A stretch of DNA of 54,136 nucleotides from Oligoflexia bacterium (GTDB lineage Bacteria > Bdellovibrionota > UBA1018): contig CAIRTR010000271.1 of NCBI GenBank assembly GCA_903881565.1, positions 1-54,136 of the forward strand. Reading direction: 5' to 3'. Positions 1 to 32,866 of the stretch are shown piece by piece (within the stretch, counting starts at the first letter, position 1; each line of letters begins with the position of its first letter). The notes under the pieces were generated by a model. It worked only from the letters and a program-made list of their open reading frames with translations. It was not told the DNA's origin and did no database searches. The position numbers were made by a program, and so were the translations under genes.

Positions 1-217
1 CCAAACACCCTATCCCCGGCCGTCGAGGGGCTTATTACACAACAAAAGATGAATTGACTATCCCTATTTTAGGATAAATGCCTTTTTCGCATCTGCGCTT
101 TCTGCCTATTTTCGAATATTGAAAGTGCAAAATCGGAAACCCAAAAATAAACTGCAGTCGTTTAAAACGATGAGGATTTAATCATCATCACAAGGCTTGG
201 GGCCCCTAAAATCCCTT

Positions 218-30395: not shown

Positions 30396-31438
30396 TGCCG
30401 CCACTCATGGGAACAACCTGGAACTGGACTGTCGAAGACCCTGCCCTTCGCGCCGACAAAGCGATTCAAGAAGCCCTCGAAAGAGACGGACAACCCCTTT
30501 CGCGCAGCCAAATCCAAAAACTCATGGAAGAGGGACAAATCACCGTTCAGCAAAATGGCGTACTAGGCCCGCCCGTGGGAGGTGGCCTGCGAGGCGGCCT
30601 GCGAGGCGGAACGAAGTTAAACCCAGGCGACGTGGTCGTCGTTCATATTCCTGCACCTAAGAAGATCGAAACCGAGGCGCAAGACATCCCCCTTGAGGTC
30701 TTGTTTGAAGATGAGCATCTTATTGTCGTGAACAAGCCCGCAGGCCTCACCGTTCACCCTTGCACGACTCAAACTGAAGGAACGCTGGTCAATGCCCTGC
30801 TTTTTCATATTAAAGACCTTAAAGGAATCGGTGGCGCCCTTCGCCCCGGTATCGTCCACCGCATTGATAAAGACACCTCGGGCGCTTTCGTCGTTGCGAA
30901 GTCTGAAGAAGCGCACCAAAAACTGGTTTCGGTTTTTGCGGCACACGAAATTCAAAGGACGTACCGCTGCTTTTGCTACGGGTCATCTCGTGCCCAGACG
31001 GGAACGATTGAAACGACGCTGGGACGCAATCCCCGGGATCGCAAAAAGATGGCTCCAAACGTCAAAAACGGCAAAGTCGCGATCACCCATTACCGCAGAC
31101 TTCAAACCTACGGACTCCCGAACGCCCCTCCGTTTGCAAGCGAATATGAAGTCACGCTTGAAACGGGACGCACCCATCAAATCAGAGTTCATTTTACGGC
31201 TGAAGGATTCTCGATCTTAGGCGATCCAACTTATGGAACGCCGACTGAAAAACAATCAAAATGGGTTAACCTGCCTGCTGAAATCAAAGCTCTCGTTTCG
31301 GCCCTTCCCGGTCAAGCCCTGCACGCGCAAACCTTGGGGTTTGAGCACCCGATTACGGGAGAGGCACTACTTTTAGAAGCCCCGCCGCCAAAGGCTTTTC
31401 TGGATCTTCAGAGAGCGCTTGAGCGTTATTTGAGCTGA
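30395..31438 (+). CDS. RluA/RluD-family pseudouridine synthase
   Basis: A 347-residue enzyme that converts uridine to pseudouridine in rRNA or tRNA. An S4-like N-terminal domain (ALRADKAIQEAL, RSQIQKLMEEGQI) is followed by the catalytic core with HRIDKDTSGAFVVAK, where the Asp is the nucleophile, and a C-terminal ETGRTHQIRVHF. The GTG at 30395 overlaps the last base of the previous stop; ATG 30407 is an alternative. The S4-linker carries an exact in-frame tandem duplication of 12 bases (30584-30607) that makes the sequence GGLRGGLRGG. The particular RNA site modified cannot be decided. Confidence 0.93.
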   Translation: MPPLMGTTWNWTVEDPALRADKAIQEALERDGQPLSRSQIQKLMEEGQITVQQNGVLGPPVGGGLRGGLRGGTKLNPGDVVVVHIPAPKKIETEAQDIPLEVLFEDEHLIVVNKPAGLTVHPCTTQTEGTLVNALLFHIKDLKGIGGALRPGIVHRIDKDTSGAFVVAKSEEAHQKLVSVFAAHEIQRTYRCFCYGSSRAQTGTIETTLGRNPRDRKKMAPNVKNGKVAITHYRRLQTYGLPNAPPFASEYEVTLETGRTHQIRVHFTAEGFSILGDPTYGTPTEKQSKWVNLPAEIKALVSALPGQALHAQTLGFEHPITGEALLLEAPPPKAFLDLQRALERYLS

Positions 31439-31489
31439 AGTCAGCTGAAGCGCCGAAACAACGCCATGATAATAATAACTAAAATAACT

Positions 31490-31554
31490 ATGGCATGGAT
31501 TCATGGCACGCGTCACAATGGCAAATTGACATGGCATACGTTTTGCCATATACT
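31490..31554 (+). promoter_or_regulatory. Operator array and leaderless promoter of the RHH/MazF pair
   Basis: TTGACA (31526-31531) and TATACT (31549-31554) are spaced 17 bases apart, a near-perfect sigma70 promoter. The expected transcription start coincides with the ATG at 31561, so the mRNA should be leaderless. ATGGCA occurs at 31490, 31503, 31518 and 31531, and its complement TGCCAT at 31544, with steps of 13, 15, 13 and 13 bases. This is a likely cooperative operator for the ribbon-helix-helix antitoxin. Confidence 0.8.
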
Positions 31555-31560
31555 GAAAGC

Positions 31561-31836
31561 ATGAAATCTGCCGCCAGGACCAAAAACTTTCATGTTCCAC
31601 TGCCGGACGAAACTTATTTCGAACTCCGGGAAGTAGCCCACGATCTCAATCAGCCGGCGACTCAGATTGCACGTGATGTAATTCAGACTTGGCTGAAACA
31701 AAGGAAAAAAGAAGCTTTACGCCAGCAGCTTACCGCTTATGTATCCGTCAATGCAGGAAGCCGCTATGACATGGATCCCGAGCTAGAAGCTGCCGGGATT
31801 GAACATCTGTCAGACCCAGAAAAAGAGGCCGGATGA
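31561..31836 (+). CDS. Ribbon-helix-helix antitoxin of a MazF module
   Basis: A 91-residue antitoxin from ATG 31561; an upstream ATG frame would translate the promoter. Residues about 8-45 (FHVPLPDETYFELREVAHDL, then ATQIARDVIQTWLKQRK) have the beta-strand and two helices of the RHH fold that binds DNA as a dimer. The acidic C-terminus (about 60-91) should wrap the toxin. The stop overlaps the toxin ATG by four bases. Autoregulation through the upstream ATGGCA array is inferred. Confidence 0.85.
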   Translation: MKSAARTKNFHVPLPDETYFELREVAHDLNQPATQIARDVIQTWLKQRKKEALRQQLTAYVSVNAGSRYDMDPELEAAGIEHLSDPEKEAG

Positions 31837-32180
31837 AACGAGGAGAAATCTATTGGGCGGACCTGATTCCCCGGTCGGGATCCGAACAGCTTGGCAGAAG
31901 GCCAGTTATCATTATTTCACACGACGTATTTAATGAAAGTCCACAATGGCATTCAATCATTACGGTTCCTGTCTCTACGTCTGAGAAGCAGTCGCAGCGC
32001 GGCCCATCCGCAGTTTTTCTTCAAAAGGGAACGGCTGGCCTCAAACACAGCAGCGTTGCCCTTTGCCATCAGGTCACAACGTTAGATCGCTCCAAGTTCA
32101 AAGAGCGAATCGGGATGCTTCCCGCCAGCAACCTAGCTGAAGTTGAAAGTGGACTCAAGGCTGCCATGGATCTCCAATAG
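31833..32180 (+). CDS. MazF/PemK-family mRNA interferase toxin
   Basis: A 115-residue toxin of the MazF fold. It begins MKRGEIYWADLIPRSGSEQLG and has RPVIIISHDVFN, the PemK/MazF N-terminal pattern; the catalytic Arg is likely in the first loop and the Thr/Ser in IITVPVSTS. KHSSVALCHQVTTLDRSKF is also typical. It cleaves single-stranded RNA at short motifs when the antitoxin is lost. It is translationally coupled to the RHH antitoxin. The pair sits between conserved housekeeping genes as a probable acquired insert. Confidence 0.93.
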   Translation: MKRGEIYWADLIPRSGSEQLGRRPVIIISHDVFNESPQWHSIITVPVSTSEKQSQRGPSAVFLQKGTAGLKHSSVALCHQVTTLDRSKFKERIGMLPASNLAEVESGLKAAMDLQ

Positions 32181-32197
32181 CCTGTGCACCTCTTGAT

Positions 32198-32866
32198 CTA
32201 CCGCTTCATAATAACTGAAAACTGACGCGCCTTGAGCCGATCCCGTCGATAGCTTTCAAACGCAAAGCCGTTTCCCCCTTCAGCATCCCGCGAACAATGA
32301 GTGCAATACGGCATCACCTCCAACTCACCGATCCCCAGACGCTTGAGCATCGCTGCATTGATGGCGTGCAAATCCAAGTGCCTGTGCTTTGGTACCGCCT
32401 GATTTGCCCCCATCCAGTTGAATTCGCGCGCGAATTCTTGCGAGATCTCCTCACTCACTTCGTAGCAGCATGCCCCGATCGCAGGCCCGACCACCGCCAC
32501 CCATTTTGAGGGGTCGCCCAAACGTGCGAAAACTTGCTCGATGATCCTGGATTTCGTCCCCCGCCACCCCGAATGGACGGCTGCCACTGCACTCCCGTCT
32601 CTCAAAGCCAGCAGGATCGGAACACAATCAGCAGCTCGAATCCCGATGGGTAGCCCTTTTTCCGTCGTCCACATCGCGTCGACATTTCCACACGCTTGCC
32701 GGGCTTCCTTTATATGGGCCAGATCCACTCCAGCCACCTGGTTCCAGACCGGGGCATGGGCTTTCCAGGATTCTTCAAAAGCATGAGGAATCTCCTCCCC
32801 CCTTCGACCGAAACCGTACTCGACCCCGGGAACATTCGACAAAACTTGGCTCCGTAGCGTGATCAT
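32198..32866 (-). CDS. pgeF: Peptidoglycan editing factor / YfiH-type (laccase domain) protein
   Basis: A 222-residue protein of the YlmD/YfiH family, studied both as a purine nucleoside phosphorylase/oxidase and as PgeF, which prevents wrong residues in murein precursors. Landmarks are IGIRAADCVPILLAL, AAVHSGWRGT with the metal His, and VGPAIGACCYEVS with Cys. The length is slightly below the usual 240 residues; the N-terminal beta-hairpin is shorter. The start ATG 32866 abuts the divergent CcdA-like gene region. Confidence 0.92.
   Translation of the reverse strand: MITLRSQVLSNVPGVEYGFGRRGEEIPHAFEESWKAHAPVWNQVAGVDLAHIKEARQACGNVDAMWTTEKGLPIGIRAADCVPILLALRDGSAVAAVHSGWRGTKSRIIEQVFARLGDPSKWVAVVGPAIGACCYEVSEEISQEFAREFNWMGANQAVPKHRHLDLHAINAAMLKRLGIGELEVMPYCTHCSRDAEGGNGFAFESYRRDRLKARQFSVIMKR

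Follow-up and report, generated by a model that had tools for sequence, protein, structure and literature searches.

A start-codon-phased array of short near-palindromic sites over the predicted leaderless promoter of a mazEF-type operon

The region 5′ of the mazEF-type operon in the window, as we call the whole stretch of 54,136 nucleotides from an Oligoflexia bacterium that was analysed, is very likely an autorepressor operator array lying over a leaderless promoter (Table 1). Self-repression by the antitoxin is suggested by the conservation of the array in the antitoxin family. Comparison of the promoters in this family turns one oddity into what appears to be a family-wide rule: the site and its spacing are fixed, and the strand residues expected to read the site are invariant.

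Table 1. Coordinates of the candidate operator, promoter and genes of the window's mazEF-type operon.
Feature	Position	Strand	Remarks
Operator site 1	31490..31496	.	ATGGCAT; hexamer ATGGCA 31490-31495
Operator site 2	31503..31509	.	ATGGCAC; hexamer ATGGCA 31503-31508
Operator site 3	31518..31524	.	ATGGCAA; hexamer ATGGCA 31518-31523
Operator site 4	31531..31537	.	ATGGCAT; hexamer 31531-31536; first base is the last base of the -35
Operator site 5	31543..31549	.	TTGCCAT; hexamer TGCCAT 31544-31549; overlaps the first base of the -10
Weak sixth site	31556..31562	.	AAAGCAT; 2 mismatches to ATGSCAT; start-codon register
-35 hexamer TTGACA	31526..31531	+	promoter match
-10 hexamer TATACT	31549..31554	+	promoter match
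Predicted transcription start, A of ATG	31561	+	inferred from distance to the -10 and leaderless class in relatives
Antitoxin gene, 91 aa, ribbon-helix-helix	31561..31836	+	N9, F10, H11, P13 and L14 invariant in 23-row alignment
PemK/MazF toxin gene, 115 aa	31833..32180	+	ATG overlaps antitoxin stop (ATGA, 31833-31836); PF02452

The toxin matches PF02452 with an E-value of 2.2e-28 and 99 bits (cut-off 23.1), and the small antitoxin gene lies immediately 5′ of it on the same strand. Searched alone, the window antitoxin gave no match to Pfam and NCBIfam models; 10 of its 23 aligned relatives match PF01402 (RHH_1) at E-values up to 0.1, the best being 2.7e-4. A structure model of the antitoxin monomer (pLDDT 84; residues 1-15 without an assigned strand) aligns over 78 residues (6-83) with MazE of Bacillus subtilis (4me7; Z 6.7, rmsd 2.4). 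Its alignment with the Arc mutant 1myk (Z 5.4) is gap-free and pairs residues 6..50 with 6..50. Against RHH antitoxins the Z-scores reach 7.1, and because all remain under 8, with Foldseek E-values of 0.08 or worse, assignment of the ribbon-helix-helix (RHH) fold leans also on sequence profiles. Judged at the level of the family together with the model, the window antitoxin appears to possess an RHH DNA-binding domain. Arc contacts DNA via residues 9, 11 and 13; the antitoxin has N, H and P at these positions, with no variation among the 23 aligned rows.

A preliminary description of this DNA had placed four ATGGCA hexamers and one TGCCAT in front of the antitoxin gene, and a recount of the window letters finds them at exactly those positions. 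The promoter it had named, TTGACA-N17-TATACT directly 5′ of the ATG, is also present; it is sigma-70-like, agrees with 11 of 12 consensus positions, has a spacer of 17 nt and leaves 6 nt between TATACT and ATG 31561. Because of this 6-nt gap, transcription starting 7 nt past the -10 would begin at the A of the ATG. The hexamer starts are spaced by steps of 13, 15, 13 and 13, and their centres by 13, 15, 13 and 12. A 7-bp near-palindrome, ATG-S-CAT, describes the unit better than directional hexamers do, and since the unit is nearly palindromic the orientation of the window sites carries little weight; the sites once described as four direct hexamers and one inverted are thus all there, but that description gives way to one of a near-symmetric 7-mer. 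An Rfam search of 31200-32400 returned a single match, under the gathering score.

Relatives of the antitoxin are present in four related genomes (5/143 with the window's own genome counted); none was found in viral contigs or in plasmid records at the limits used. A scan of species genomes yielded 24 antitoxin loci, nearly all from metagenome-assembled genomes, in hosts that include Bdellovibrio, Bdellovibrionales, Oligoflexia, Deltaproteobacteria, Syntrophobacteraceae, Desulfobacterales, Desulfuromonadales, Bryobacterales, Solibacteraceae, Acidobacteria, Acidobacteriota, Gammaproteobacteria and Candidatus Uabimicrobium, among others. Additional genome searches gave matches in 6/368, 8/396 and 5/297 genomes, some of them to loci already found. 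With re-found loci counted once there were 37 loci including the window, and five were dropped to leave 32 for analysis: L011 and L031 are near copies of L010 and L029, respectively; L035 has a VapC-like neighbour and lies outside the antitoxin family; L051 has other strand residues and sits on a short contig; and the match in L052 covers the C-terminal part only. Antitoxin starts were assigned by rule to the nearest ATG 5′ of the strand motif. The start of L048 was moved to an upstream ATG with a Shine-Dalgarno sequence for the register, flank, pair and corrected Shine-Dalgarno counts; the core count (71) and the step count (54) used its rule-set start. The 32 loci are not independent, as some of them are closely related, among them L053 to L054 and L055 to L056.

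Across these 32 loci, the 80 bp 5′ of the antitoxin hold 71 TGGCA or TGCCA cores, against a mean of 12.1 and a maximum of 22 in 500 dinucleotide shuffles; at least one core is present in 28 loci, at least two in 25 and at least three in 14. The control stretch from -150 to -81 contains four cores in 31 loci. Neighbouring cores are 12-14 bp apart in 45 of 54 steps (12 bp in 14, 13 bp in 27 and 14 bp in 4, with 9 others), whereas 20,000 random placements gave a mean of 4.5 such steps and a maximum of 14. Among 83 TGGCA-oriented sites the most common flanks are T-T/C-A-TGGCA-T/C-A/G-A, near to the palindrome TTATG-S-CATAA, with the 5′ A kept in 65 sites and the 3′ T in 37; adjacent sites have opposite orientation in 31 cases and the same orientation in 16. 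The simplest reading of this arrangement would be one RHH dimer per site.

Pairs of ATGNCAT (one mismatch allowed) at 12-14 bp are found in 26 of the 32 loci, against a shuffle mean of 0.18 and a maximum of 2 in 300 shuffles. Counted together, ATGGCA and TGCCAT are unremarkable in number across the window (36 copies in 54,136 bases against a shuffle mean of 28.9, with 13 of 100 shuffles reaching 36), as would be expected if the repeats were a chance or structural feature with no regulatory meaning; against such an origin stand the core counts, the step counts and the pair test in the family, and we consider it so improbable that it can practically be discounted. Five of the 36 window copies crowd into 60 bases from 31490. 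The six loci that fail the pair test are L017, L021, L022, L027, L028 and L046, although L027 and L028 carry exact cores at the right step. In L050 the sites at -29, -16 and -4 have A or T at the centre with steps unchanged, and by eye L046 has a similar change of centre; these substitutions may reflect a natural change of specificity.

The array is also held in register with the start codon. At -4, exact cores are present in 12 of the 32 loci, and 21 have a site with at most one mismatch when four columns are counted; exact cores number 15 at -16/-17, 17 at -29/-30 and 7 at -42/-43, and positions between these peaks hold 0 to 2 cores, up to about -45. As the cores peak at -4, the array extends onto the start codon, and in many family members the AT of the start codon finishes the last palindrome.

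In the 4.56-Mb genome that contains the window, the triple pattern TGSCA-N7-9-TGSCA-N7-9-TGSCA occurs in two places, the mazEF operator and a perfect 12-bp tandem repeat, and the reversed control pattern gave 0 matches. This tandem repeat (L065, G000:C272:22581-22609; TGCCAACAAAGT) fits the operator-array pattern. A genome-wide regulon of the site was considered and rejected, the genome offering one other ATGGCA pair (C9:17944) and, as its one other triple, the tandem repeat. Also in this genome is a second MazF operon (L063, G000:C288:6706-7017, minus strand), whose toxin is 37% identical to that of the window; its antitoxin is RHH-like with strand residues unlike the window's, and its promoter has a GGTA...TACC repeat. 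No TGGCA/TGCCA core was found near the L063 promoter, and the sole core in the 600 bp 5′ of its toxin lies at -572, some 330 bp 5′ of its antitoxin. An operon like L063 in another genome (L062, G014:C291:8514-8819, minus strand) carries GGTATTAC twice, 12 bp apart; its one core, at -144, is within its antitoxin gene, with none in the repeat stretch before that gene. L051, whose strand reads DIHVSL, lacks a core in the 123 bp that could be searched.

These controls bear on what binds the array. We infer, from its conservation, that the binder is the antitoxin, and this leaves some room for a different, global regulator of mazEF acting at the repeated sites; however, the triple array is limited genome-wide to the mazEF operon and one tandem repeat, the array tracks the antitoxin family through distant hosts, and the genome's other mazEF bears a different repeat, so that we regard a global regulator as very improbable. 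The family comparison supports the preliminary view of this region as a toxin-antitoxin promoter whose antitoxin is of the RHH type and whose repeated sites would each suit one dimer: both the array and the 12-14 bp spacing are kept in the antitoxin family and are missing near the other mazEF promoter of the genome.

When all loci are scored by a single rule, 12 have their best -10 at 5-9 nt from the ATG and 17 have it farther away, with L021, L055 and L056 in neither class as they have no -10 by the rule. A Shine-Dalgarno sequence is present in 1 of the 12 loci with a close -10 versus 11 of the 17 with a distant one (Fisher p 0.003); with the L048 start corrected the counts are 1/11 versus 12/18 (p 0.006), and L048 is then without a good -10. 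On these sequences, a close -10 and a Shine-Dalgarno sequence tend to be mutually exclusive. The best -10 lies 6-7 nt from the ATG in L010, L012, L013, L016, L018, L022, L030, L033 and L050; a TTGAC-N -35 with a 16-18 nt spacer is present in L010, L012, L013, L014, L033, L053 and L054; and in the window, L010, L012 and L013 a close -10 goes with a -35 that agrees at 5 or 6 of 6 positions. Leaderless members, the window among them, usually have the -10 over the site near -16. Leadered members usually have it over the site near -29, with their Shine-Dalgarno sequence between the -16 and -4 sites. In L020, L026, L027, L055 and L056 the Shine-Dalgarno sequence fills the gap 5′ of the start-codon site, and the mRNA is therefore predicted to begin almost at the Shine-Dalgarno sequence. 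An RNA hairpin masking the Shine-Dalgarno sequence in leadered members (TGGCA ... TGCCATG around GGAG; L020, L027, L055) was also considered and rejected; its upstream arm would be mostly untranscribed, because the -10 of L020 and L027 predicts a start about 11-13 nt before the ATG.

In a tree built from antitoxin and toxin sequences joined together, the class labels, some of them set by hand, require at least nine changes; 15 of the 29 forks are open, and two class changes lie inside well-supported groups (L020/L022, and L029 versus L018 and L024). L024 and L049 were labelled leaderless by hand, and for L021, L048, L055 and L056 the label followed the Shine-Dalgarno sequence. L014, L015, L019, L023 and L032 carry no label, although L023 falls in the close class by the rule (9 nt, with GAGG), and L017 and L032 were placed on the tree without a toxin row.

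In the window no Shine-Dalgarno sequence is found at -18..-4 of the antitoxin start, and the promoter is probably placed for a start at the antitoxin ATG, which would give a leaderless mRNA. A leadered transcript from farther upstream would leave the operator array as described, with ATG 31495 or a leader serving translation; one example of its source is read-through out of the pseudouridine-synthase-like gene, which ends at 31438. The antitoxin frame is indeed open up to ATG 31495, which would give a protein of 113 aa, and a search of the + strand at 31438-31490 found no terminator-like site. We nevertheless think this arrangement unlikely: a near-consensus promoter lies directly 5′ of ATG 31561 with a geometry kept in relatives, homology to the relatives begins at the M encoded at 31561, the frame is closed within 6-7 codons 5′ of the antitoxin start in L010 and L012, and the lack of a Shine-Dalgarno sequence before ATG 31561 is matched by there being none, by eye, before 31495. 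An N-terminal extension from ATG 31495 was rejected as unconserved in relatives. The leaderless start that the preliminary description had predicted is thus favoured, indirectly, by the start of homology at M1, the lack of a Shine-Dalgarno sequence and the relatives' -10 at 6-7 nt, but it belongs to one class of members and is not family-wide. Among 163 longer ORFs in a 224-kb sample of the same genome, none had a comparably strong promoter 5-8 nt before its start, in a scan of little power that found few promoters at any distance; on this count leaderless genes are not evidently common in the host.

In the mechanism that we propose, each ATG-S-CAT copy would take one antitoxin dimer, whose strand residues N9, H11 and P13 would face the DNA and read TG-S-CA. 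Dimers on adjacent sites, whether or not MazF is bound to them, could form a chain that spans both promoter hexamers and the start codon and would keep RNA polymerase out. For the conditional cooperativity with MazF to which the preliminary description had considered the arrangement suited, with repression that would rise and then fall as the toxin:antitoxin ratio grows, a row of neighbouring sites would be a precondition and no more. Degradation of the antitoxin would release the chain and let transcription resume from the A of the AUG, and the new transcript would restore antitoxin first and toxin second via the overlapping ATGA. In the leadered relatives, an array in the identical start-codon register would usually serve a promoter one unit farther upstream, producing a leader of about 11-13 nt with a Shine-Dalgarno sequence.

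A further reading, which we put forward tentatively and as possible rather than probable, is that the start-codon-registered array has accompanied repeated promoter hops of ~13 bp, which toggle members between leadered and leaderless transcripts without disturbing repression and may favour the antitoxin under MazF. If this were so, each one-unit hop would swap a short leader and its Shine-Dalgarno sequence for a leaderless mRNA, or the reverse; a leaderless antitoxin mRNA could remain translatable when MazF favours leaderless messages, and such translation would tilt recovery towards the antitoxin. The natural members of the family vary in the number of sites, the central base and the leaderless or leadered start, and so offer a ready set for studying the influence of operator length and of the leader on a toxin-antitoxin switch.

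The kind of system is already known, since RelB, YefM, omega, MazE6, AmrZ and the leaderless toxin-antitoxin mRNAs of mycobacteria precede it in the excerpts of the papers compared here; the long start-codon-phased array appears to be a new feature on it. Among the open-licence matches listed, judged by title and start of abstract, none describes the TGSCA array of this antitoxin family, its start-codon register or the one-unit promoter shift, and in the Bdellovibrio literature on MazF and toxin-antitoxin systems the same parts of the matches listed hold nothing on the window operon.

The excerpt on MazE6 of Mycobacterium tuberculosis describes an RHH protein with one 18-bp operator that includes the -10 and is bound by one dimer, and sets this operator against the palindromic one of Escherichia coli; the DNA-contacting strand residues of the M. 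tuberculosis MazE proteins are given there as unconserved (PMC9477884). Like MazE6, the window antitoxin is an RHH protein paired with MazF, with an operator that includes the -10 just 5′ of the predicted transcription start; unlike MazE6, it faces five near-palindromic sites over its promoter in place of one 18-bp site, and N9, H11 and P13 are invariant among the 23 rows of its family. B. subtilis MazEF (4me7) resembles the window pair in joining an RHH MazE to a MazF partner, with the fold match spanning residues 6-83, but identity to its MazE is 15% over the aligned residues.

RelB of E. coli binds relO at two adjacent 12-bp half-sites with the core [A/T]TGT[A/C]A, whose spacing is reported as essential for cooperative repression (PMC2812701). 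The window shares with RelB an RHH antitoxin and repeated short sites, and differs from relO, so far as it is excerpted, in having five sites, 12-15 bp apart, with the core TGSCA and extending to the start codon. YefM is not known to be an RHH protein. The YefM-YoeB operator consists of two palindromes 12 bp apart from centre to centre, one of them over the -10, with critical spacing and with the pair conserved 5′ of homologues in several genomes (PMC4803016). The window sites are near-palindromic, spaced at 12-15 bp and placed with one on the -10, but they number five and not two. In the omega repressor of pSM19035, RHH dimers, one per 7-bp repeat, polymerise along heptad arrays (PMC4803016); the window has a comparable array of short repeats, but at 12-15 bp and, going by that passage, in a different kind of operon. 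AmrZ of Pseudomonas aeruginosa is an RHH protein that recognises GGC half-sites within TGGCA and represses its own gene (PMC3325190). The window sites contain TGGCA as well, whereas AmrZ is no antitoxin, uses two GGC half-sites and, in the excerpt, has no start-codon-phased array; the antitoxin model matches the AmrZ structure 3qoq with a Z of 5.6 only. Finally, toxin-antitoxin operons of M. tuberculosis include mRNAs measured to begin at the start codon (PMC8485053; compare PMC3898074); compared with these, the start in the window is a prediction, in a different phylum, that applies to some members of its family only.
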